Below, piece by piece: positions 12,195 to 23,337 of a DNA stretch of 64,000 bases. Positions within the stretch are counted from its first letter, which is position 1; every line of letters starts with the position of its first letter. The notes under the pieces were generated by a model. The model was not told the origin of the DNA, searched no databases, and saw nothing but the letters and a program-made list of their open reading frames with translations. This DNA is from Lachnospiraceae bacterium (GTDB lineage Bacteria > Bacillota > Clostridia > Lachnospirales > Lachnospiraceae). The position numbers and the translations under genes were made by a program. Where the stretch lies: the NCBI GenBank assembly GCA_015057025.1, contig SVFD01000006.1, positions 1 to 64,000 on the forward strand, read 5' to 3'.

Positions 12195-13829
12195 ATGTCT
12201 AAAAAAAGTAAGTTGTGGATAATAGTGTCCGTATTGGTTGTCATGCTTGTTTTGGCTGCATGTAAGGATGTTACCGGTACAGCAGAAGTGATATCCGGAA
12301 ATGATGCCAATACATCTGAAACCGTCAGCGAAAACACGTCAGAAGAGAATTCCGAAATTGTATCGGAAACAGATTCTGAGGAAGTTGAAGAAGAGAGTGC
12401 AGAAGAGTCTGCAGAAGAGTCTGCAGAAGGGAAAACACCTTTTGAATTGCATGGTGCCTTGAAAGTAGACGGAACCAATATTGTGGATGAAAATGGTGAA
12501 ATTTTTCAGATTGCGGGCGTAAGTACTCATGGTCTTGCGTGGTTTCCTGACTATGTAAATAAAGATGCTTTCCTTTCTATTCGTGATGATTGGGGGGCAA
12601 ATACGGTACGTCTGGCCATGTATACGGCAGAAAACGGCGGTTATTGTGAAGGCGGAAATAAGGAAAACCTTAAAACCCTTGTAAAGAATGGCGTAAACTA
12701 TGCTACTGAGCTTGGTATGTACGCTATCGTAGATTGGCATATTTTACATGATTTAGATCCGAATAAATATAAAAGCGATGCTATTGCATTTTTTGATGAA
12801 ATGTCAAAGGAATTTAAGGATCAGGATAATGTTATTTATGAAATTTGTAATGAGCCCAATGGCGGAACAAGTTGGAGCCAGGTAAAAAGCTATGCGTTGG
12901 AGGTTATTCCCGTAATTCGTGCCAATGATCCCAATGCCATTATCATTGTAGGTACTCCCAATTGGTGTCAGTATGTAGACGATGCGGCTAATGACCCCAT
13001 TACAGAATATGACAATATTGTATACGCTGTACATTTTTATGCAGAAACGCACCGGGATGATATCCGTAACAGAATGGTAACCGCTATAGATAAGGGATTA
13101 CCTGTTATCATTTCAGAATTCAGCATATGTGATGCATCCGGAAACGGAACCAATAATATTGAGCAGGCCAATGTCTGGATTGATCTTTTAGATGACTATA
13201 ATGTAGGTTTTGTAGCGTGGAACTTATCTAATAAGAATGAGTCTTCTTCTCTGATATCCAGCGGAAACAGTAAGACCTCCGGATGGACCTATGATGAATT
13301 GTCTGAGTCCGGTAAATGGTATGTTGGAGTATTGAATGAGCATTCCGATCACGGAGCGGGTCTGTTAAATGGGCAGGCTCCTGCCACATCGGGAAATGAG
13401 GGTTCTGCAGACAATGGCGGAAATGGCAGTAATTCTAATAACAATTCCGGAAATACAAATAATAATAACTCCAATAATAACCAGCAGAGTACACTTCCTT
13501 CCGGTAGCGGAAGCGGTAATAATCTGTATGCAAGCGTGACAGCGTCCAATTCATGGGATACCGGTAGCGGTAAAGGAACACAGTTTAGTGTAAGTATTGA
13601 AAATAAGGGTACATCATCTGTAAGCAGCTGGACAATAGAGATTGATTTGGGGCAGAGTGCAACCATTGACCAGATTTGGTGTGCCAAAGGTGAAGTACAG
13701 GGAAATAAGATTATTATTACTCCTGAGTCTTATAACGGAACCATCGAAGCAGGTAAAACGGTTTCGGATATCGGGTTTATCGTAACAACATCCGGTTCTG
13801 TAAGCTCCACCAGCGTGACGGTAAAATAA
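12195..13829 (+). CDS. secreted GH5_2 endo-beta-glucanase lipoprotein with cellulose-binding-like module
   Basis: 544 residues. Lipoprotein signal with lipobox LAAC (C23), then an acidic Ser/Glu/Thr spacer (about 28-80) that includes three copies of an E-E-S-A unit. The GH5 domain spans about 85-385; acid/base E220 lies in EICNEPNGG and nucleophile E308 in VIISEFSICDASG; the layout matches subfamily 2 endoglucanases such as Bacillus Cel5. A Asn/Gly/Ser-rich linker (about 400-440) leads to a C-terminal beta module (about 445-544) with FSVSIENKGTSSVSSWTI, like CBM2/CBM3-type binding modules. It should sit on the cell surface and cut beta-1,4-glucans. Confidence 0.9.
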   Translation: MSKKSKLWIIVSVLVVMLVLAACKDVTGTAEVISGNDANTSETVSENTSEENSEIVSETDSEEVEEESAEESAEESAEGKTPFELHGALKVDGTNIVDENGEIFQIAGVSTHGLAWFPDYVNKDAFLSIRDDWGANTVRLAMYTAENGGYCEGGNKENLKTLVKNGVNYATELGMYAIVDWHILHDLDPNKYKSDAIAFFDEMSKEFKDQDNVIYEICNEPNGGTSWSQVKSYALEVIPVIRANDPNAIIIVGTPNWCQYVDDAANDPITEYDNIVYAVHFYAETHRDDIRNRMVTAIDKGLPVIISEFSICDASGNGTNNIEQANVWIDLLDDYNVGFVAWNLSNKNESSSLISSGNSKTSGWTYDELSESGKWYVGVLNEHSDHGAGLLNGQAPATSGNEGSADNGGNGSNSNNNSGNTNNNNSNNNQQSTLPSGSGSGNNLYASVTASNSWDTGSGKGTQFSVSIENKGTSSVSSWTIEIDLGQSATIDQIWCAKGEVQGNKIIITPESYNGTIEAGKTVSDIGFIVTTSGSVSSTSVTVK

Positions 13830-13946: not shown

Positions 13947-14309
13947 TTACTGCTCAATGAATTTCTTGATTGCTTCCATAGATTCATCACTGATAACATG
14001 TTCAATCTTACATGCGTCATCAACGGCAGTGTTTTCGCTTATGCCAAGTTTTAAAAAGAAATCTGTTAAGATGGTATGTCTGCCATAAATTTTGGCTGCA
14101 ACGTCCATTCCCTTCTGTGTTAAAGTAATGCGTCCGTTGGTTTCCATCTCAATATAGCCGTCGTTTTTCAACAATTTCATGGCTCGGCTTACACTGGGCT
14201 TGGAGAATCCCATTTCTTCGCAAATATCAATGGAGCGTACGAAGTCGCTTCGCTTTGATAAAGTATAGATTGTTTCCAGATACATTTCGCCGGATTCTAA
14301 TAAATTCAT
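13947..14309 (-). CDS. DtxR/MntR-family repressor, Fe(II)-type
   Basis: 120 residues: winged helix (about 1-70) plus a short dimerisation domain, without the SH3-like third domain, so MntR-sized. The metal site is readable: M9 and E12 in EMYLETIY, H78, C100, E103 and H104 in DDACKIEH. Family knowledge: Met at the first position and Cys at C100 are DtxR-type (iron); MntR has Asp and Glu there (manganese). It is divergent from feoAB and the intergenic region holds three copies of a matching inverted repeat. I chose the ATG at 14309; an ATG at 14327 (in frame) is possible. Confidence 0.85.
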   Translation of the reverse strand: MNLLESGEMYLETIYTLSKRSDFVRSIDICEEMGFSKPSVSRAMKLLKNDGYIEMETNGRITLTQKGMDVAAKIYGRHTILTDFFLKLGISENTAVDDACKIEHVISDESMEAIKKFIEQ

Positions 14310-14383: not shown

Positions 14384-14399
14384 GTTAGCAGAAACTAAC
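14384..14399. promoter_or_regulatory. DtxR-type operator, copy 1
   Basis: GTTAG-CAGAAA-CTAAC, a perfect 5-bp arm inverted repeat. It lies 75 bp from the repressor start and could serve autoregulation. Resembles the core of known DtxR/IdeR boxes (TTAGGTTAG-type halves). Confidence 0.65.
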
Positions 14400-14469
14400 T
14401 TTTATAGCATAAATTTGATAAAAACAACATAAATTATATAAAAACAGGGAAAAACAGGTAAAAAAACGC

Positions 14470-14498
14470 TTTACAAACATTTTCTTTTATGGTATTAC
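14470..14498 (+). promoter_or_regulatory. feoAB promoter
   Basis: TTTACA (14470-14475), 17 bp, TATTAC (14493-14498). Expected start near 14505, directly before operator copy 2. Confidence 0.6.
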
Positions 14499-14509
14499 AT
14501 TAGATGAGA

Positions 14510-14525
14510 GTTAGCCCATACTAAC
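14510..14525. promoter_or_regulatory. DtxR-type operator, copy 2
   Basis: AGTTAG-CCCATA-CTAACT (arms six bases with flanks) at the expected feoA transcription start; a bound repressor here would block initiation. Confidence 0.75.
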
Positions 14526-14536
14526 TGGGTGAAGAA

Positions 14537-14552
14537 GTTAGTCAACACTAAC
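14537..14552. promoter_or_regulatory. DtxR-type operator, copy 3
   Basis: AGTTAG-TCAACA-CTAACT, 27 bp centre to centre from copy 2 and ahead of the feoA ribosome site. Confidence 0.75.
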
Positions 14553-14578
14553 TGATTAAGTAAATAGGAGTGCACCTT

Positions 14579-14803
14579 ATGAACTTAAATGAAGTGAACC
14601 TCGAAGAGGAGTATATCGTAAAAGAGATTGTTACGGAGGATGAAGAACTGGACGCATTTCTTTTTTCTCTGGGTTGCTACGCAGGAGAGCCGATTACGGT
14701 GATTGCCCGAAAAAGACGTGGTTGTGTAGTTGCTATAAAAGATGGCAGGTACAACATTGATAATCAGTTGGCAGAAGCGATTATAGTAGAACAATCGGAA
14801 TAA
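14579..14803 (+). CDS. feoA: ferrous iron transport protein FeoA
   Basis: 74 residues, the normal size of FeoA, an SH3-fold cytoplasmic partner of FeoB. Pattern L-x-F-L-F-S-L-G-C-Y-A-G-E-P-I-T-V-I-A-R and a closing Y-N-I-D-x-Q-L-A-E-A-I-I-V match the family (R-L-x-x-x-G-x-x-x-G and I-R-x-x-x-A-x-x-I). The ATG at 14579 is eight bases after TAGGAG; the in-frame GTG at 14570 overlaps that site and is rejected. It is followed by feoB after 75 bp and preceded by two iron-box operators. Confidence 0.88.
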   Translation: MNLNEVNLEEEYIVKEIVTEDEELDAFLFSLGCYAGEPITVIARKRRGCVVAIKDGRYNIDNQLAEAIIVEQSE

Positions 14804-14878
14804 AAAAGAGTTGAAAGAGTTATAGGGATAGATTACATATTGTCTAACCCACAATTGTAGAACAGGAGAATAACCCCC

Positions 14879-16888
14879 ATGAGAATAGCATTAACAGGTA
14901 ATCCGAACAGTGGTAAGACTACCATGTACAATGCGCTTACAGGTCGTAAAGAGCGTGTTGGTAACTGGGCAGGTGTTACCGTAGATAAGAAGGAAAGCCC
15001 TATTAAGAAGAGTTTTTATGAAGGCGCAGAAGAATTAATCGCAGTTGACCTTCCTGGTGCATACTCCATGTCGCCTTTTACATCGGAAGAAAGCATCACC
15101 AGTACATATGTTAAGAATGAAAACCCCGATGTAATCATTAACATCGTAGACGCTACAAATTTAAGCCGTAGCTTATTCTTTACTACACAGCTTATGGAAT
15201 TAGGCGTTCCTGTGGTAGTTGCATTGAATAAGAGCGACGTAAACGATAAGAAGGGTAATGAAATTGATGAAGCAGCTTTGGCTGAGAAGTTAGGTTGCCC
15301 TGTAATCGAGACAGTTTCCGTTTCCGGCGGAGAGCACAATGGTCTCGCAGACGTTGTTAAAGCGGCTGTTGAAAGCGTAGGAAAAGCGCAGAAGGCCCCT
15401 TACGTACAGGCTGATATCGATTTGAACGACAAGAAGCAGGTTATAGAAGCAGATAAGAAGCGTTTTGATTTCGTAAACGGAATTGTAGATTCAGTAGAAA
15501 AACGTAAAACAGAGACAAACAAGAAGAATGCACAGGATAAGTTTGATGCGGTAATCACACATCCCCTTTTAGGTATTCCTATTTTTGCCTTGGTAATGTG
15601 GTTAGTATTCTTCATTTCCCAGTCTACCGTAGGTACATGGATTGCAGACTGGTTGGTTGGCTGGATTGAAGTATTCCAGGAATGGGTAGCGGGTCTTGTA
15701 GAAGGTGCACATCCTTTCCTTCAGGCGTTGCTTGTTGACGGTATTATCGGTGGTGTAGGTGCCGTAGTCGGTTTCCTTCCTTTGGTAATGGTAATGTACT
15801 TCCTTATCGCATTGTTGGAAGACTGCGGTTATATGGCAAGAGCAACCGTTGTACTTGACCCCATCTTTAAGAAGGTTGGTCTTTCCGGTAAATCCGTAAT
15901 CCCTATGGTAATCGGTACCGGTTGTGCAATTCCCGGCGTTATGGCTTGCCGTACCATTCGTAATGAAAGAGAACGTAAGGCTACAGCAATGTTAACACCT
16001 TTTATGCCTTGTGGTGCAAAGCTTCCTGTTATTGCATTGTTCGCAGGTGCATTCTTTGCAGATGCAAAGTGGGTAGGCGTTGTTATGTACTTCGTTGGTA
16101 TCCTTTTAATCCTTCTTGGAGCTTTGCTTGTAAATAAGATTGCAGGACATAAGTACAGAAAGTCCTTCTTTATCATTGAGCTCCCTGAATATAAGCTTCC
16201 CAGCTTAAAGGTTGCATTCCTTTCCATGTGTTCACGTGGTTGGGCATACATTGTAAAAGCAGGTACCATTATCCTTGTTTGTAACGCAGTTGTTCAGATT
16301 ATGCAGAGCTTTAACTGGCAGTTCCAGTTGGTGGAAGAAGGTATGGAAAATACTTCTATCCTTGCAACCATCGCAACTCCTGCAGCATACCTTTTGGTTC
16401 CTATCGTTGGTTTTGCGGCTTGGCAGTTGGCAGCAGCAGCGATTACAGGTTTTATTGCAAAAGAAAACGTTGTTGGTACATTGGCAGTTTGCTATGCATT
16501 AACAAACTTTATCGATACAGAAGAATTGGCATTAACAGGCGGCGCAAACGAAGTTGCGGTTGCCATGGGTCTTACTAAGGTTGCAGCACTTGCTTACCTG
16601 ATGTTTAACCTTTATACACCTCCCTGCTTCGCAGCCATGGGTGCTATGAATTCTGAAATCAAAGATAAGAAGTGGCTCTTTGGCGGTATTATGTTACAGT
16701 TTGCTACAGGTTATACAATTGGTTACCTTGTATACCAGATTGGTACTCTTATTACAACAGGTGCATTGGGAGCAGGTTTCTTCCCCGGCCTTATTGCAGT
16801 AGTTGCAATTATAGCAATCATTGTTATTCTTATCATTAATACAGAGAAGAAGATGAAGAAAGAATACGCATTAAAGAAAGCTGCATAA
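14879..16888 (+). CDS. feoB: ferrous iron transporter FeoB
   Basis: 669 residues. N-terminal G domain with G1 GNPNSGKTT (about 7-15), G3 DLPGAYS and G4 NKSD, a short GDI linker, then about ten membrane helices with two Gate/nucleoside-recognition repeats; the conserved metal-path motifs GCAIPGVMACRTIRN and LYTPPCFAAMGAM each carry a Cys. It imports Fe(II) coupled to GTP hydrolysis. It is shorter than the E. coli protein (773), which is common in Firmicutes. Codon use (few rare codons, high A at third position swaps such as CTT/GTA) suggests strong expression. Regulation: iron repression through the upstream operators. Confidence 0.96.
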   Translation: MRIALTGNPNSGKTTMYNALTGRKERVGNWAGVTVDKKESPIKKSFYEGAEELIAVDLPGAYSMSPFTSEESITSTYVKNENPDVIINIVDATNLSRSLFFTTQLMELGVPVVVALNKSDVNDKKGNEIDEAALAEKLGCPVIETVSVSGGEHNGLADVVKAAVESVGKAQKAPYVQADIDLNDKKQVIEADKKRFDFVNGIVDSVEKRKTETNKKNAQDKFDAVITHPLLGIPIFALVMWLVFFISQSTVGTWIADWLVGWIEVFQEWVAGLVEGAHPFLQALLVDGIIGGVGAVVGFLPLVMVMYFLIALLEDCGYMARATVVLDPIFKKVGLSGKSVIPMVIGTGCAIPGVMACRTIRNERERKATAMLTPFMPCGAKLPVIALFAGAFFADAKWVGVVMYFVGILLILLGALLVNKIAGHKYRKSFFIIELPEYKLPSLKVAFLSMCSRGWAYIVKAGTIILVCNAVVQIMQSFNWQFQLVEEGMENTSILATIATPAAYLLVPIVGFAAWQLAAAAITGFIAKENVVGTLAVCYALTNFIDTEELALTGGANEVAVAMGLTKVAALAYLMFNLYTPPCFAAMGAMNSEIKDKKWLFGGIMLQFATGYTIGYLVYQIGTLITTGALGAGFFPGLIAVVAIIAIIVILIINTEKKMKKEYALKKAA

Positions 16889-16940
16889 TTAAATTGTGTA
16901 AAAGATTGTTATTTTATAGAATTTTTTAATGAGGTAGAGT

Positions 16941-17120
16941 ATGGAGAATTTTATTATTGTTGCGGTTATCCTCCTGATTGTAGGCGGAGCAGTGGCGTAC
17001 ATAATAAAAGAGAAGAAAAAAGGTGCGGTTTGTGTGGGTTGCCCTCACGCCGGCGAGTGCGCGAAGAAGCGTCAGGGCGGTTGCAACTGCGGCACCGATA
17101 TACAGCAAACCAAAGATTAA
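16941..17120 (+). CDS. FeoB-associated Cys-rich membrane protein
   Basis: 59 residues starting MENFIIVAVILLIVGGAVAY (one membrane helix), then a Lys-rich stretch and a Cys-rich tail with CVGCPHAGEC and CNCG. This is the pattern of the small FeoB-associated protein found after feoB in many Firmicutes. It is 52 bp after feoB and a terminator follows, so it is the last gene of the iron operon. Proposed role: helper for Fe(II) passage or FeoB assembly. The start has GAGGTAGAG just upstream. Confidence 0.85.
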   Translation: MENFIIVAVILLIVGGAVAYIIKEKKKGAVCVGCPHAGECAKKRQGGCNCGTDIQQTKD

Positions 17121-17160
17121 TTCGGTTGACCAACATACATAAATCTAATCTCAAAGACAG

Positions 17161-17188
17161 AACCTTCGCCCTAGGGCGGGGGTTTTGT
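17161..17188 (+). terminator. terminator of the feo operon
   Basis: AACCTTCGCCC / GGGCGGGGGTT stem with two T-G pairs, minimal loop and TTTTG after it. Confidence 0.75.
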
Positions 17189-17294
17189 TTGCAAGTAGGA
17201 AATTTTTTTAGAAGAGAATTTATACTCCCAATATAAAAGACAATATGTTATAGTAAAATTCAATAGAGTAATAATTTTGGAGGAAAAACGAATA

Positions 17295-17924
17295 ATGCAT
17301 GAGTGTGATTTTTGTTCCAATGAAATAGATTTTCATGAAATAGTAGAGTGTATTGCGTCGGCGCTGGATGCTAAGGATCCTTATACCGCAGGCCATTCTC
17401 ACAGAGTCAGTGATATGGCGTTGGTGGTATGCCGGCTTATGGGCTTAAAAGATCATGATACTGAAAAAATACATATTGCCGGACACTTACATGATATCGG
17501 TAAAATTGGTGTGCCTGACGCGGTTTTGAATAAAGAAGGAAGGCTTACGGATGAAGAATTTACTTATATAAAAAAACATCCGCAGATTGGAGCGGATATT
17601 TTAAATAAGTCTCATCGTTTAAGCGAGTTATCCAATATTGTATTAATGCATCATGAACGCTTCGACGGCAAAGGTTATCCCACCGGAGCCAAAGGTGCTG
17701 ACATTCCGGTGGGAGCACGTATTCTTGCCATATGTGACAGTATTGATGCTATGACCTCTAATCGATGTTATCGTAAGGCATTGAGCTTTGAATACTGTTA
17801 TAATGAAATTGAGAAAAATTTAGGAACAATGTACGACCCTATCATTGGTCGGTACGTGTTGGATAACTGGGATGAAATCATCAGTGTTGTTCAAACTACC
17901 AAATGCCATAGTCTCCAAAATTAA
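17295..17924 (+). CDS. HD-GYP domain phosphohydrolase
   Basis: 209 residues, almost only an HD-GYP domain. Motifs: HSHRVSDMALVV, the HD pair in GHLHDIGKIGVPDAVL, HH in MHHERFDGKGYP and the GYP signature GYPTGAKGADIPVGARI, all intact. Such proteins cleave cyclic di-GMP or related dinucleotides. The N-terminus has two Cys and a His in a short leader. I chose ATG 17295 (GGAGG eleven bases upstream); a TTG at 17277 is possible. Its 3' end overlaps the end of the opposite-strand gene by 29 bp. Confidence 0.88.
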   Translation: MHECDFCSNEIDFHEIVECIASALDAKDPYTAGHSHRVSDMALVVCRLMGLKDHDTEKIHIAGHLHDIGKIGVPDAVLNKEGRLTDEEFTYIKKHPQIGADILNKSHRLSELSNIVLMHHERFDGKGYPTGAKGADIPVGARILAICDSIDAMTSNRCYRKALSFEYCYNEIEKNLGTMYDPIIGRYVLDNWDEIISVVQTTKCHSLQN

Positions 17925-18501
17925 TATCTGAGTCATATTCATCACCAAATTGAAGACCTTCCTGGCGTTCCTCATATGCGTCAGCCTGATTTTCCTGCAG
18001 CTCTTCTTTGATGTCCTCTTCTTCCTCTTCAGGGATAGGATTTGCCGGCGGTTCCTCCGAAGTATCTTCATCATCAGGGTTAGAAGGCGTAGAAGACTGC
18101 TGTTGTTGCTGTAATTGCTCTAACAGTTTGTCAATCTCTTCTTTAAGCTGCTGGGCAGGTTCGCTGTGTCCATCGCCTTCTTCTGTGGCGCATCCATCCT
18201 CCAATAATATGTCTCTTGCTTCCATTAAAGTAGCAATACTGTTTTCCACATTTTCCGGTGCGGCAAAATCAGGCCCCATATTGTAAATCATAGCCAGTGC
18301 CAGATTGACGCGGATGGAGCATTCTTTAAAATGCGGCGGAAAGGCATCCAGGGCATTTTCATACTGTTCAATAGCACCTACGTAATCAAATCTTTCGTAT
18401 AAACGGTTTCCCTTGTTGTAATAAAATATATATCGTAAAAAAAGAAAGCCGAAAATCGTAATCAGTACTATGAATATTGCTGCCAAAATTTTTCTTTTCA
18501 T
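17896..18501 (-). CDS. TPR-like membrane-anchored protein, last gene of MoxR/VWA operon
   Basis: 201 residues: one N-terminal membrane helix (about 5-27), a tetratricopeptide-like segment (NRLYERFDYVGAIEQYENALDAFP and following helices), a Gln run, then a very acidic Glu/Asp-rich tail with Pro. The place at the end of a MoxR-DUF58-VWA-VWA operon and the TPR unit resemble BatC of Bacteroides-type clusters. Its function is not known. Its last 29 bases overlap the HD-GYP gene on the other strand, so the two transcripts run into each other and no terminator is visible between them. Confidence 0.7.
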   Translation of the reverse strand: MKRKILAAIFIVLITIFGFLFLRYIFYYNKGNRLYERFDYVGAIEQYENALDAFPPHFKECSIRVNLALAMIYNMGPDFAAPENVENSIATLMEARDILLEDGCATEEGDGHSEPAQQLKEEIDKLLEQLQQQQQSSTPSNPDDEDTSEEPPANPIPEEEEEDIKEELQENQADAYEERQEGLQFGDEYDSDINFGDYGIW

Positions 18502-18519
18502 AGCTATTGTGTTCCTTTT

Positions 18520-19476
18520 CTAAAAGTTAATCTTCCTTTTGTAATAAACAAAATCTATCGCAAGCAGAGGAATCAGCGGAATCAAAATGAAATAAAATGT
18601 GTCGGAATATCCCACTGTAGAGGTTTTTTCATCACTGGTGTCCATCTGTGCAATCTGTTTTTGTACGGTTGTAAGGACAGAATCTATTTCAGATTGTTTT
18701 GTCATATGGACGTATTCAATACCCATATCAGAAGCGATGTTCTGCAAATTTTCTTCATCAATTTCAGAAATTGCTGTTCTTCTGTTGAAATCACTGTCGT
18801 AATAATAAAGCTTTTCGGGAGAGCCTTCTTCACCTGCGTATGCATGAGCATGCATGGGGCCGCCTTCTTCCGTGCCGTAACCTAATACGGCACCGCCGTC
18901 AATATAATCCTTTAGGCCGGGATATGAGCCCATATCATTACCGTTGGTAATTTCTCCGTCGCTGATAAAGAAAACAATCTGTAAATGTTCATTCTCTCTA
19001 TTGAGATAATCATTTAAAAATGTTAAAACGTCATCAAATTCCGTTCCCTTAGCATAAAGGGTTGTTTGTCCTTTTAAAGACTGTAGTGCCTGAACGACAT
19101 TAATACTGTCAATGGTATAAGGTAACAGGCTGTTTACCTTATTTCCGAAAGAGACTACGGAAAAAGAAGAACCGGGAAGCTGTTCCATAATATATTCGCA
19201 GTCTTTCTTAACCGCTTCCATTCGTGTTGTACCATCTTCGTCATAATCTTCAGCCAACATACTTATGGTATTGTCTACTACAAAAAGAACATCCACGTTT
19301 TTTTGTATCGTACTTACTTCAGAGTTTGGAATCATAATTCGTAAGTTTATGATAAAGAGAAGTATGATAATAAAAATTTGGCGAATGTAATTAAAAGTTC
19401 CTTTTCGTTTAAAAATAAGAAGGACAATGCAAAGGATTACCATAAGCCAAATAGGGATAATGGGATTTACAATCAT
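18520..19476 (-). CDS. VWA-domain membrane protein (second of two)
   Basis: 318 residues with membrane helices near the N-terminus (two, within about 5-55) and one at the C-terminus (about 290-312). The VWA domain starts VDVLFVVDNTISML; the MIDAS motif reads D-N-T-I-S rather than D-x-S-x-S, so metal binding may be altered but is not excluded. I chose the ATG at 19476 because it overlaps the previous stop as ATGA; an upstream in-frame ATG would overlap 42 bp more. BatB-like position. Confidence 0.8.
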   Translation of the reverse strand: MIVNPIIPIWLMVILCIVLLIFKRKGTFNYIRQIFIIILLFIINLRIMIPNSEVSTIQKNVDVLFVVDNTISMLAEDYDEDGTTRMEAVKKDCEYIMEQLPGSSFSVVSFGNKVNSLLPYTIDSINVVQALQSLKGQTTLYAKGTEFDDVLTFLNDYLNRENEHLQIVFFISDGEITNGNDMGSYPGLKDYIDGGAVLGYGTEEGGPMHAHAYAGEEGSPEKLYYYDSDFNRRTAISEIDEENLQNIASDMGIEYVHMTKQSEIDSVLTTVQKQIAQMDTSDEKTSTVGYSDTFYFILIPLIPLLAIDFVYYKRKINF

Positions 19477-20465
19477 AATCTGACCTTTCTGCTGAATATA
19501 AAATACAGGCTCATACAAATAAGCATGCAGATAAAGAATACTTGCGGCTTATCTGTAATAATCGTTTTAATGTCTTCCATACTGGATGTATCCGTAAGTC
19601 GAATATCATCCGTTAATTTATCAAATACTTTATCGGAAGTTACTTCGTAGAAGCCTCCTCCGGTGCTTATCATTGCGTTACGAAAAGTTTCTCGGTCGGT
19701 AATATCCTCGGGAGTAACGGCAAATACTTTTACATCGTTTTGAAGGCAAAGTGCAGCTGCTTCTTCAACGGTTACAAGAGGTTCGCCATTTAATTCATTA
19801 TCTGTGGTAAAAATGATTAAACGGCTTCTTTCATCATTTTCTTCCAAGTCAGGGAAGTTGTAAAGGCAGGAAGCCAAACCATCACCAATCAATGAACTTC
19901 CAAATTCAATTAAAGTTCCTTCGTATTTATACTGATATAAGTCATAATGCTCGAAATTTAATTTGCCGTCGATACTGTATTCGAAAGCTGTTTCCAGCTT
20001 CTCTAAGGTATCCAGGACATATTCGTAATCGGAGGTTAGAGGTACCAGAAGAACGGATTGACCGTTAAAAATGGTAATACCAAAACGCTCACCATCTAAT
20101 TCTTCAACAATACCTTTTAATTCATTACAAATATCTAAATTTAATTCATCTACGGAATCGGAAATGTCCATACAAATAAAAATATCCCGGTTGTGAAGAT
20201 TTGTTTGAATCACATCAATTTTGACGGGGCGAGCCAACATAATAATGCCGAATAAAAGGCTGAGCCATAAGAAAATCAGAGATAAAATACTGAAGCATTT
20301 ATATTGTCTCATCAGTTTTTTATATAAAGGAGTTTCTTCGACAAAATTTGTATTGGCGACTTTTCTACCCTTATGAAATACATCTTTTCTTTTTAAGGTA
20401 AAAAAAGTTAAAACAATGGCAATGGGGATTCCGATAAACAGTACTTGAGGATACATTAATTCCAT
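19473..20465 (-). CDS. VWA-domain membrane protein (first of two)
   Basis: 330 residues. Two N-terminal membrane helices (about 6-24 and 58-80) with a charged loop, a VWA domain with an intact MIDAS, ICMDISDSVDE, and a C-terminal helix (about 308-326). BatA-like. Probably forms a membrane complex with the second VWA protein and is remodelled by the MoxR ATPase. It overlaps the upstream gene by 10 bp and the downstream gene by 4 bp, so expression is coupled. Confidence 0.82.
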   Translation of the reverse strand: MELMYPQVLFIGIPIAIVLTFFTLKRKDVFHKGRKVANTNFVEETPLYKKLMRQYKCFSILSLIFLWLSLLFGIIMLARPVKIDVIQTNLHNRDIFICMDISDSVDELNLDICNELKGIVEELDGERFGITIFNGQSVLLVPLTSDYEYVLDTLEKLETAFEYSIDGKLNFEHYDLYQYKYEGTLIEFGSSLIGDGLASCLYNFPDLEENDERSRLIIFTTDNELNGEPLVTVEEAAALCLQNDVKVFAVTPEDITDRETFRNAMISTGGGFYEVTSDKVFDKLTDDIRLTDTSSMEDIKTIITDKPQVFFICMLICMSLYFIFSRKVRL

Positions 20466-20917
20466 TCTGCTATTACCGTCCTTGCTTTATTAATCAATTT
20501 GTACACATCTGCATCTGCGTCAACAGCAAATTCAGGGATATAACACTGTGAAATGAGTTCATACAGTTTGGGAAGCTTTGCGGCATGAATTTCCATTAAA
20601 GTGTAATTCTGCACGCGAATGCCCGTGGCATCATATACAAAATTTCTTACTGTCTTACTGAGAGCCTGTAATGCTTGTCTGTCAGAGCATTTACCCTCTC
20701 TGCATTTTTTTTCAAGATCATTTAAGATGCCAATATATTTTTGTTTTAAAACAGTAATATTCTGCGGTGATATTGGTTTGGGTTTCGGCACAGGTTTCTT
20801 CTTTTTGAATTTAGGAAGAAAGAGAATAAGAAGTGTGCCGGCAAGCCCAACGACGATTAATAAAATCACCGGAAAATAAGTAAAATATTTCTGTAACTCA
20901 ACGGTTATTGCTTGCAT
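20456..20917 (-). CDS. single-span protein of the MoxR/VWA operon (DUF4381-like position)
   Basis: 153 residues: one membrane helix (about 14-33), a Lys/Pro-rich stretch (KKKKPVPKPKP) and a helical cytoplasmic domain with a CREGKC motif. I do not recognise a motif firmly; in related operons this slot between DUF58 and the VWA proteins holds a DUF4381 protein with the same layout. It overlaps both neighbours (20 bp and 10 bp). Confidence 0.6.
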   Translation of the reverse strand: MQAITVELQKYFTYFPVILLIVVGLAGTLLILFLPKFKKKKPVPKPKPISPQNITVLKQKYIGILNDLEKKCREGKCSDRQALQALSKTVRNFVYDATGIRVQNYTLMEIHAAKLPKLYELISQCYIPEFAVDADADVYKLINKARTVIAEWN

Positions 20918-21773
20918 ATTTATGCCTTTCTAATAATTCCATACTTTTATCTACAATTTGTTTCTCGCTGTCAATTTGGACACTTACAACCTGATTGCGA
21001 AGAAGCTTGTGTGAATTTTCGTTTGCAATTTGCTCGCGTATCTTCTTTTCAGCGTCTATAAGCTTTTTGTTCTTGGCAATAAAATCAGACACATAGATAG
21101 ACTTGTCTATGTCAAAGGATTGTGAACCGGTCAGGGTTGCATCTGCAATATTGACAAAAAGCAAATCATGCTGGACACATAATTTCTTTAAGGTGCTATC
21201 GCTGATATCATGAATGCCGCCGTTGTCCGTAATGACAAAAATAATCATTTTTTTGGATACATATTTAATGATATATTCCAAGGATTTATTTAGATCACTG
21301 TCATAACCCGTAAAATCTTCTTTTTCATATGAAGTAAGAATGTGTTCCAAATGATTCAAACCGCGTCTGAGGGGAAAATATTGAATCATGCCGCCGCGAT
21401 TGTAAACGGCCCCCACGTTATCTCCGTTTTGGGTTGCAAGATAAGCAAGGGTTCCGCCGGTGTACAGAGCTACATTCTTTTTGCATTCTTTTGTATTGGT
21501 ATCAGCGGTAAAACTGCGGCCTGTATCAAAAACCAACAAAACATTGTGCTTTTTTTCGGCAATATATTGTTTTATCAAAAGGTTTTTATTTCTTGCAGAA
21601 GCCTTCCAGTCAATGTCCCTGATATTATCGCCGGGAATGTATTCCCGTAAATTCTCGAAATCCAAGCCGTTACCGGTATAAATGGATTTGTAAGAACCGT
21701 CAAAGATATTACTGGTTTTTTTCTTGGCATAAACGCTGACTTTTGCCTGAATTTTGATAATATGTTTCATCAT
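20898..21773 (-). CDS. DUF58 domain protein
   Basis: 291 residues, no membrane segment. The DUF58 signature is clear: LREYIPGDNIRDIDWKASAR followed by LLIKQYIAEKKHNVLLVFDTG, which begins a VWA-like fold. DUF58 proteins are constant partners of MoxR ATPases; the biochemical role is unsettled. The start codon overlaps the stop of the MoxR gene as ATGA. Confidence 0.88.
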   Translation of the reverse strand: MMKHIIKIQAKVSVYAKKKTSNIFDGSYKSIYTGNGLDFENLREYIPGDNIRDIDWKASARNKNLLIKQYIAEKKHNVLLVFDTGRSFTADTNTKECKKNVALYTGGTLAYLATQNGDNVGAVYNRGGMIQYFPLRRGLNHLEHILTSYEKEDFTGYDSDLNKSLEYIIKYVSKKMIIFVITDNGGIHDISDSTLKKLCVQHDLLFVNIADATLTGSQSFDIDKSIYVSDFIAKNKKLIDAEKKIREQIANENSHKLLRNQVVSVQIDSEKQIVDKSMELLERHKYASNNR

Positions 21774-22771
21774 GGTGTGGGAATTGCTCCTAAAATCTGG
21801 TTAATAATTTTTTCGGAAATAATATTATCTGCAACAGCAGCGTAGTTAAGGGTAATACGATGTCTTAATACGCTGTAAATCATTTTCTTAACGTCTTCGG
21901 GAATGACAAAGTCTCTTCCGTTTAAAAGGGCGATTGCCTTGGAAACTTCCATCAATGCAATGGCACCACGGGTACTGGAACCTAAGGTGATGTACTGTGC
22001 AAGCTGGGGCCCTATATAAGCGGCAGGCTTTCTTGTAGCATCAATGATTTTGATAATGTACTGCTTAATGGCATCGTCAATATAAACACGCTTGGTAAGA
22101 TTCTGAACAAAAACAATATCCTCTATGGTAGCAACAGATTGTCCGGATGAGAAAACATCCTGTTCAATACGGTTTAAAATTTCGAATTCTTCGTTGGTAT
22201 TGGGATAGAATAATCTTTCTTTTATTAAGAATCTGTCCAATTGTGCTTCCGCAAGCAGATAGGTACCTTCCTGTTCGATAGGGTTCTGGGTTGCAATTAC
22301 GGTAAAGACTTCAGGCATTTCGAAACGCTCACCGCCGATGGTCACCTGACGCTCCTGCATTACTTCCAACATGGCACTCTGTGTTTTTGCACTGGAACGG
22401 TTAATTTCATCCAATAATAAGAAGTTGGCACAAACAGGACCGAGCTTGGTCTCAAATTTATTGGTGGAATAGTTAAAAATCTGGCTACCGATAATATCAC
22501 TGGGTAAAAGGTCCGGTGTACACTGCACACGGGAAAAAGTTCCGTCTACGGCCTCGGTCATAATTTTAGCCGCTGTAGTTTTGGCAAGACCCGGTACGGA
22601 CTCTACCAAAATGTGACCGTTACACATAAGTGTAACCAGAAGTGAGGTGCCAAGCTGCACCTGACCTACCATTTTGGAATAGTAGTAATTACTGATGTTC
22701 TGCAGAATTTTGTCCGCTTTTTGCATTTCCTCTTGACTGATTCTTGTGTAATTGTCCATAGTATTCTCCAT
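21770..22771 (-). CDS. MoxR-family AAA+ ATPase
   Basis: 333 residues, first gene of the minus-strand operon 22771-17896. Walker A is ESVPGLAKTTAAK, Walker B FLLLDEINRSSAKTQ, followed by the sensor 1 TQNPIEQEGTYLLAEAQLDRF typical of MoxR, and a C-terminal lid with VLRHRITL. Works as a chaperone-like ring that remodels VWA-domain partners, here the two membrane VWA proteins. A TATACT box lies close upstream on this strand but no good -35 was found. Confidence 0.93.
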   Translation of the reverse strand: MENTMDNYTRISQEEMQKADKILQNISNYYYSKMVGQVQLGTSLLVTLMCNGHILVESVPGLAKTTAAKIMTEAVDGTFSRVQCTPDLLPSDIIGSQIFNYSTNKFETKLGPVCANFLLLDEINRSSAKTQSAMLEVMQERQVTIGGERFEMPEVFTVIATQNPIEQEGTYLLAEAQLDRFLIKERLFYPNTNEEFEILNRIEQDVFSSGQSVATIEDIVFVQNLTKRVYIDDAIKQYIIKIIDATRKPAAYIGPQLAQYITLGSSTRGAIALMEVSKAIALLNGRDFVIPEDVKKMIYSVLRHRITLNYAAVADNIISEKIINQILGAIPTP

Positions 22772-22872
22772 TCTAAAGTCAGTATAAATATTCGCTTGGT
22801 TGCAAGCTTTTTTAAAATATTTTCTAAATGATTCTATTTATAAGACAGAGTATAAAACAAAAAGAGAAAAAA

Positions 22873-22897
22873 AGAAAGTATTTTTTTAATACTTTCT
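22873..22897. promoter_or_regulatory. AT-rich palindrome between divergent genes
   Basis: AGAAAGTATT-TTTTT-AATACTTTCT, perfect 10-bp arms, just before the -35 of the iron-box promoter and about 100 bp ahead of the MoxR gene. May be an operator or a weak bidirectional terminator. Confidence 0.35.
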
Positions 22898-22909
22898 AAA
22901 AAAGTTATA

Positions 22910-22938
22910 TTGACATCATAAAAAAACAGGAATATACT
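22910..22938 (+). promoter_or_regulatory. strong promoter of the 23020 gene
   Basis: TTGACA (22910-22915), 17 bp, TATACT (22933-22938): one mismatch to the sigma-A consensus. Confidence 0.8.
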
Positions 22939-22945
22939 GGATTTG

Positions 22946-22961
22946 GTTAGCGAAAGCTAAC
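22946..22961. promoter_or_regulatory. DtxR-type operator, copy 4
   Basis: GTTAG-CGAAAG-CTAAC, eight bases after the -10, that is at the transcription start. Same arms and spacing as the three copies before feoA, 8.4 kb away. Confidence 0.75.
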
Positions 22962-23019: not shown

Positions 23020-23337
23020 ATGGAAAACATTATTATTATCGGAATATTGATTGCGGCAATCATTATCGGTGTGATATATACCGTGAAGCATTTTAAGGGA
23101 GAAAGCAGCTGTTGCGGAGGCGGTTCATCCGTAAAAGCGAAGAAAAAGAAATTAAAAAATGTCATCGCCCGTAAAACCATTACGATTGAAGGGATGACCT
23201 GTGACCATTGCAAGAATCGTGTAGAGAGAGTTTTAAATCAAATGGACGGAGTTGCAGGCAAGGTAAATTTGAGTAAGAAGCAGGCGATTTGTTTATGTGC
23301 AGCTTGCGCAGCAAAAAGTGTCACTTATGTTATGTGA
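23020..23337 (+). CDS. membrane-anchored heavy-metal-associated protein, shortened HMA domain
   Basis: 105 residues: membrane helix (about 4-22), a Cys/Gly cluster SSCCGGGSS (about 29-37), a Lys-rich linker and an HMA domain with the metal motif GMTCDHCKNRVE. The first half resembles the FeoB-associated small proteins. The HMA part stops early: after KVNLSKKQAI it continues as CLCAACAAKSVTYVM instead of the usual second strand-helix-strand, so the domain is cut short by roughly 20-25 residues, perhaps by a frameshift. Controlled by a strong promoter with an iron-box operator at its start, so probably made under low iron. Could bind Cu or Fe. Confidence 0.75.
   Translation: MENIIIIGILIAAIIIGVIYTVKHFKGESSCCGGGSSVKAKKKKLKNVIARKTITIEGMTCDHCKNRVERVLNQMDGVAGKVNLSKKQAICLCAACAAKSVTYVM

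Follow-up and report, generated by a model that had tools for sequence, protein, structure and literature searches.

What joins the ferrous iron transport genes of a Lachnospiraceae bacterium to a separately located gene for a small, membrane-anchored HMA protein is the question raised by the stretch of DNA analysed here (contig SVFD01000006.1, positions 1 to 64,000; this whole 64-kb stretch is referred to as the window). Besides a dtxR-type regulator gene (13947..14309, minus strand), the window encodes, all on the plus strand, feoA (14579..14803), feoB (14879..16888), a PF12669 protein (16941..17120) and a truncated copy of the anchored HMA gene (23020..23337). An initial annotation had linked feoAB and the HMA gene through a shared inverted repeat, GTTAG-N6-CTAAC. 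The reading preferred here, to which we assign a probability of about 0.7, is that a metal-loaded DtxR-type repressor without SH3-like domain would control feoA-feoB-PF12669 and the HMA gene by binding TTAG-N6-CTAA as a single dimer.

The four exact copies of the repeat claimed initially were all confirmed, at 14384..14399, 14510..14525, 14537..14552 and 22946..22961. Only 0.03 copies are expected in shuffled sequence of 64 kb, none of 100 shuffles of the window reached four sites, and a first-order Markov simulation of both intergenic stretches (517 bp) gave an expectation of 0.0005 sites. The first copy is located between the dtxR-type gene and feoA, the second directly after the -10 box read for feoA, the third 5' of feoA, and the fourth starts 7 bases past the -10 box of the HMA gene. 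When the dtxR-feo region was aligned with those of three relatives of the same genus (G001, G006 and G020), the copies at 14384 and 14537 were found in all three, while the copy at 14510 was present in the window genome only; the fourth copy occupies the same place in G001 and G006. The four sites are operator-like, and the protein encoded next to them, the DtxR-type regulator, is predicted to be their likely binder.

The promoter described for the HMA gene (TTGACA-17-TATACT, 22910..22938, plus strand) was recovered by the promoter scan with 11 of 12 consensus positions, although the region contains three promoter-like matches compared to 2.8 in shuffles. A second sequence, TTTACC-18-TATAAT (14433..14462, minus strand; 10 of 12 positions), is weak taken alone (two matches against 1.1 in shuffles). 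Since it points at the dtxR-type gene, the operator at 14384 may serve autoregulation and is a candidate site for it. The promoter-like TTTACA-17-TATTAC of feoA (14470..14498, plus strand) was identified by eye and is not among the matches of the scan; TTTACA and TATTA are conserved across the dtxR-feo alignment (A2). Because operators start directly after the -10 box, the repressor would block transcription: dimers located at the transcription starts would keep feoA-feoB-PF12669, the anchored HMA gene and probably the regulator's own gene silent, and under metal scarcity all three units would be switched on.

In the whole genome (2.65 Mb), the exact motif is found at five places compared to three for the reversed pattern. 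Four of these are the copies in the window; the fifth (C4:38013) lies within a terminator-like hairpin, where a convergent gene has its 3' end. The relaxed core TTAG-N6-CTAA occurs at 37 places, 33 of which are outside the window; 29 of these overlap a mechanically called open reading frame (ORF) of at least 80 amino acids and four are intergenic, including C10:44087 with a single outer mismatch. A larger regulon was not seen among these 33 further places. Since the four exact sites are in the window and most of the remaining places overlap ORFs, the regulon of this genome probably comprises the dtxR-type gene, feoA-feoB-PF12669 and the HMA gene only. At the relaxed level the reversed core is even more frequent than the true one (102 compared to 37 places), so that the reversed pattern is an imperfect control and the enrichment is probably understated. 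Variation of the spacing is the better control.

For the spacing control, loci were collected via the HMA gene, independent of the presence of an operator. Nearly full-length anchored HMA proteins were found, among the matches listed, in at least 58 of 200 family genomes, not counting that of the window (small HMA ORFs counted by eye; three second copies left out of the set), and 3.0 to 12.4 kb were fetched around each of the 58 genes, amounting to 677,337 bases. In these, GTTAG-N6-CTAAC was present 59 times, while every other spacing from N0 to N20 was found once or not at all and the reversed N6 control was absent; 33 of the 58 loci contain an exact site. That the sites are chance or structural repeats such as terminators and hairpins is suggested by the one genomic copy in a terminator-like hairpin; this spacing specificity, together with the positions of sites at promoters, rules such an origin out for practical purposes. 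Over the 31 genomes of the genus, sums made by hand give 188 copies of the motif and 48 of its reversed control; the corresponding numbers in the 200 family genomes are 1172 and 361. One of these family genomes (G210) contains 43 exact copies and two controls; the next highest number in any of the 200 is 19.

The placement of the relaxed core was evaluated between -40 and 300 of gene starts; the first start codon was taken as the start of each ORF, so that distances are approximate. The core was found before 18 of the 58 HMA genes (reversed control 0/58), in 21 of the 30 loci that include a feo gene (1/30) and, in loci with a DtxR gene, before that gene in 9 of 14 (1/14), whereas it precedes 29 of the 585 other ORFs with a length of 150 amino acids or more. 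It was not found before any of the seven HMA genes located beside a CPC-type CopA. In the 18 loci in which the HMA gene has its own operator, 16 of 22 sites begin between 1 and 13 bases past the best promoter-like -10 box; upstream positions drawn at random give a mean of 3.4 of 22, and none of 500 trials reached the observed number. An operator precedes the HMA gene or a feo gene of the stretch in 36 of 58 loci, or 36 of 51 if the CopA group is set aside, and in 24 of 58, feoA or feoB shares the strand of the HMA gene and lies no more than 1.5 kb away from it (operon proximity judged by distance only). The relatives thus repeatedly place the HMA family in a feo operon or behind its own operator, in line with the claim that the gene at 23020 belongs with feoAB, and a family-wide link of the HMA gene to feoAB is well supported. 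The same contexts were seen in a second, partly overlapping contig set, which includes Roseburia hominis (L154), Butyrivibrio sp. CB08 (L117), Gemmiger formicilis (L145), Evtepia gabavorous (L106) and Anaerotignum lactatifermentans (L125); in the R. hominis locus, a relaxed-core site before the HMA gene was not found.

The regulator of the window is a protein of 120 amino acids with both domains of the DtxR family (PF01325, Fe_dep_repress, 52.4 bits, cut-off 26; PF02742, Fe_dep_repr_C, 53.7 bits, cut-off 27). It stops at the dimerisation domain, and an SH3-like domain was not found in it. The reading of M9 and C100 as the residues of an iron-type regulator is borne out when the protein is aligned to solved chains of DtxR and MntR: M9, C100, E103 and H104 align with M10, C102, E105 and H106 of DtxR. 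M9 also aligns with a methionine of the 1on2 chain, which we take to be the D8M mutant of MntR, and E103 and H104 correspond to the ligands common to both proteins. Asp or Asn at position 8 together with Glu at position 99, as in MntR, is not found. Among NCBIfam models the MntR models scored best, below their equivalog cut-offs (92.6 against 153 and 71.2 against 138 bits). Across 52 distinct homologues from 168 loci (E up to 1e-15), C100, E103 and H104 are constant, while position 9 is occupied by M (20 homologues), N (18) or D (14); position 9 as an iron mark of the whole family was therefore ruled out. A divergent DtxR-like protein (L049:1557-1940), encoded in a locus that has both an operator and an anchored HMA gene, seems, by eye, to lack the Cys and His ligands.

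Whether a protein of this type reads the sites was evaluated by comparing family genomes with and without it. Ten of the 200 genomes lack a DtxR match (E up to 1e-3) and contain 19 sites compared to 17 controls, while the other 190 contain 1153 compared to 344 (Mann-Whitney p = 0.0015 for the motif and 0.70 for the control). An excess of the motif over its control is seen where a DtxR homologue is present and not in the few genomes that lack one. When four genomes with weak DtxR matches are added to the first group, the numbers are 26 and 26 against 1146 and 335 in the remainder (p = 1e-4 and 0.98), but the cut for "weak" was chosen after the scores had been seen, and these statistics ignore relatedness and completeness. 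Some observations do not favour the proposed circuit: two genomes (G003 and G021) encode a homologue with 58% identity and have no site, one genome of 86% completeness (G084) has an operator before its HMA gene and no DtxR match, and in 15 of the 51 HMA loci outside the CopA group neither the HMA gene nor a feo gene of the stretch shows an operator. A Fur-family protein could be the reader instead, as the window genome has two Fur-family matches. This is very improbable, given that three genomes of the genus without Fur-family match over the cut-off (G005, G009 and G011) nevertheless contain 8, 17 and 11 sites, respectively, that the spacing fits a DtxR half site, and that a site precedes the DtxR gene in 9 of the 14 loci that contain one. 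Altogether, a Fur-family match over the cut-off is absent in 6 of 13 genomes of the genus searched (G003, G005, G007, G008, G009 and G011).

The boxes bound by DtxR and IdeR have 19 bp and accommodate two dimers, each of which contacts two of four repeats (PMC8464063). According to the same source, one dimer binds a designed half site as well as a natural site at the nuo promoter, and a 14-bp consensus, TTAGGNNNNCCTAA, was proposed for the IdeR half site of Saccharopolyspora erythraea. The 19-bp operator for two dimers, TTAGGTTAGSCTAACCTAA, is not found at the four sites of the window, which are single GTTAG-N6-CTAAC palindromes with half-site spacing; judged from the sequence, the TTAG-N6-CTAA spacing is that of the one-dimer half site of IdeR as described there, unlike that of the 19-bp operator. 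Compared to the S. erythraea half site, the TTAG/CTAA spacing is the same, but the outer base is mostly G/C here (59 of the 102 relaxed sites in the 58 HMA loci are exact), the element recurs family-wide and one-dimer binding would be carried over from the likeness. That the relaxed sites have almost none of the inner G/C of the IdeR half site (G 2%, C 7%) is a point against this likeness. With the IdeR/DtxR regulon of Actinobacteria, the proposed circuit shares the repressor fold, the iron-type primary ligands, the one-dimer TTAG..CTAA spacing and the control of iron uptake; it differs in the missing SH3-like domain, the single palindromes of 14-16 bp and the low-GC Lachnospiraceae host. MntR of Bacillus subtilis is likewise a short two-domain protein and among the nearest solved structures, but M9 and C100 replace its manganese-type Asp and Glu here, and the neighbours are feo and HMA genes.

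The metal that loads the repressor is most likely Fe(II), as suggested by M9 and C100 and by the content of the regulon. The genes behind sites were inspected in a chosen subset (42 genes in 46 loci of the own and related genomes, 18 of them Pfam-scanned). Among the 18 were flavodoxin, FeoA, FeoB, a ZIP transporter, a NifH-family protein, two DUF3793 proteins, one DUF2325 protein, an AraC-type regulator and HMA; a Na/Ca exchanger, methyltransferases, an ABC ATPase, a solute-binding protein and others were also found and may be there by chance. DUF2325, DUF3793, flavodoxin, NifH-family, ZIP transporter and AraC-type genes stand directly behind the operator in relatives (L008, L013, L264, L027, L030, L275 and L279 by Pfam; L011 and L033 by eye). 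Flavodoxin substitutes for ferredoxin under iron starvation, and its presence behind a site favours iron, as does that of Feo.

Several points speak against iron. The missing SH3-like domain and the mixture of M, N and D at position 9 weaken the case for Fe(II) over Mn(II). The family members without SH3-like domain reported so far were not iron-responsive in vivo, as stated in PMC7762939, and most low-GC Gram-positives are described as using Fur for iron and DtxR proteins for manganese (PMC10317159). TroR of Treponema denticola has the manganese-type Glu and responds to both Mn and Fe, and the SH3-truncated TroR is said to keep its metal specificity (PMC2628430), so that neither the ligands nor the missing SH3-like domain decide the metal. 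In Roseburia intestinalis, feoB was up 1.8-fold in low iron, but also 3.8-fold in high iron (PMC4659462). The same circuit might have Mn(II) as co-repressor, either alone or on a par with Fe(II), with the regulator as an MntR-like sensor and Feo possibly carrying manganese. The absence of an SH3-like domain, as in B. subtilis MntR, the highest (sub-threshold) NCBIfam scores, which are to MntR models, and N or D at position 9 in 32 of the 52 homologues are in line with this. In addition, MntR of Porphyromonas gingivalis, with Asp and Cys, binds both metals, its DNA binding being enhanced by Mn and weakened by high Fe (PMC4805248), and some Feo systems of Firmicutes group with a manganese transporter (PMC8749426). 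We nevertheless consider this reading rather unlikely: the regulator of the window has both sulphur ligands, a pair called iron-favouring in the review PMC10317159, and C100 is present in all 52 homologues. The flavodoxin gene behind a site, found in one relative, also argues for Fe(II).

The gene product at 23020 had been characterised as a FeoB-associated-like anchor combined with an HMA site. The HMA assignment stands (PF00403, with GMxCxxC; 35.3 bits, cut-off 24.8), but the domain of this 105-amino-acid protein is truncated and matches positions 1-37 of the 62 in the model, while one orthologue (L037) spans positions 1-62. The orthologues in G001 and G006 have kept the operator and have a complete HMA domain. 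The truncation is due to a 256-bp deletion relative to G006, which removes the final 25 of the 62 model positions; at the junction (23283..23289, plus strand) there is a single GGCGATT, of which G006 has two copies 256 bases apart. The deletion may be real in the strain or may be an assembly error. Anchor, CCG motif and CxxC are kept, while the end of the domain is lost and an unrelated tail is gained. The protein of the window strain is thus probably impaired, and may be left with neither an iron-chaperone role nor that of a metal guard or exporter partner. It scores below the cut-off of PF12669 (13.9 against 27 bits), which the protein encoded at 16941 passes, and below the cut-offs of the NCBIfam CopZ models (40.0, 39.6 and 38.0 against 95, 91 and 85 bits).

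Intact members of the HMA family have a single N-terminal membrane helix, an adjoining CCG motif and an HMA domain with GMxCxxC; CCG and GMxCxxC are invariant in an alignment of 15 anchored HMA proteins (A3). By the positive-inside rule, the HMA domain is expected on the cytoplasmic side, near the exit of FeoB, where the protein would most likely serve as a membrane-tethered, metal-handling partner of the Feo importer. PF12669 proteins are similarly small, with one N-terminal membrane helix, a Cys motif and a Feo context, and 10 of the 15 aligned HMA proteins match PF12669 (E up to 0.05; best 4.4e-6), but the HMA family carries a whole HMA domain in addition. A paper on Feo evolution discusses PF12669, and the term HMA does not occur in its text as available (PMC8749426). 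Other metal carriers encoded beside metal transporters are the soluble CopZ copper chaperones and the membrane-tethered PacL1 of mycobacteria (with CtpC). CopZ is not known to have a membrane anchor. PacL1 has no ferredoxin-like fold (PMC9374683), and FeoB does not occur in the available text of the PacL1 paper.

An alternative to an iron-related function is that the HMA protein handles copper or zinc, either guarding the iron-starved cell against wrong metals that enter via Feo or feeding a P-type exporter. The nearest curated models are copper chaperones (below cut-off), one HMA clade is encoded directly beside CPC-type CopA, P-type ATPases without CPC are found in 11 further loci, and PacL1 assists the exporter CtpC (PMC9374683). 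The copper-linked set, however, forms a single branch without operators (0/7), while feo linkage is spread over the remaining tree. We regard a copper or zinc function as a serious possibility at somewhat less than even odds; it leaves the regulatory finding unchanged. The most specific version of an iron function, in which the anchored CCG-HMA family would be a membrane-tethered Fe(II) metallochaperone taking iron from FeoB under a Fur-independent, one-dimer DtxR half-site regulon of Lachnospiraceae, is doubtful at present.

In the HMA tree (61 proteins, 128 columns, good support for 23 of 58 inner branches), the own-operator and feo-operon states are scattered, with 13 and 15 changes, of which the well supported branches force at least seven and eight, respectively. 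This is read as repeated relocation of the HMA gene, as if it had moved several times and retained its operator. Loci lacking operator or feo are likewise dispersed over the tree (9 and 6 changes), which goes against this picture and indicates that the link was lost, or missed by the strict pattern, several times. The CopA-linked HMA proteins (L228, L247, L248, L249, L251, L252 and L260) form one supported branch, with the anchored HMA gene directly beside CPC-type CopA and without operator. A simple two-state view of the HMA gene, iron versus copper, was dismissed, as it leaves the window unexplained with the copper-linked set confined to this branch. The P-type ATPases without CPC (about 670-750 amino acids; L216, L217, L218, L227, L229, L232, L234, L241, L243, L245 and L261, several of which also have feo) contain the motif D[FY]SCA before DKTGT, and GMxCxxC was not found in them.

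The remaining gene products of the region were assigned as follows. Both FeoA (Pfam FeoA, 48.2 bits, cut-off 23) and FeoB (Pfam FeoB_N, Gate and FeoB_C; TIGR00437 with 466 bits, cut-off 316) are present, in agreement with a ferrous iron transport system, and the PF12669 protein reached 33.7 bits (cut-off 27). FeoA weakly matches the C-terminal part of the DtxR-family model NF047407 (E 1.5e-4, positions 156-225 of 227), a stretch which is absent from the neighbouring regulator. Upstream of the dtxR-type gene, 12195-13829 encodes a secreted lipoprotein, glycoside-hydrolase-like with a carbohydrate-binding tail (by eye).

In the proposed circuit, the short repressor without SH3-like domain, loaded with a divalent metal, most likely Fe(II), would bind TTAG-N6-CTAA as a single dimer. 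Among the open-licence PMC titles and abstract beginnings matched, a prior description of the motif or of the HMA family in Lachnospiraceae was not found, which does not prove its absence. A review attributes iron sensing in most low-GC Gram-positives to Fur and confines their DtxR proteins to manganese, and it names the occurrence of one-dimer half sites in other IdeR-using species as a matter still to be investigated (PMC10317159). Here, an operator with half-site spacing recurs across a major gut family beside feo genes, including genomes of the same genus without Fur-family match over the cut-off, and a poorly described family with membrane anchor, CCG motif and HMA domain gains a testable place in iron uptake.

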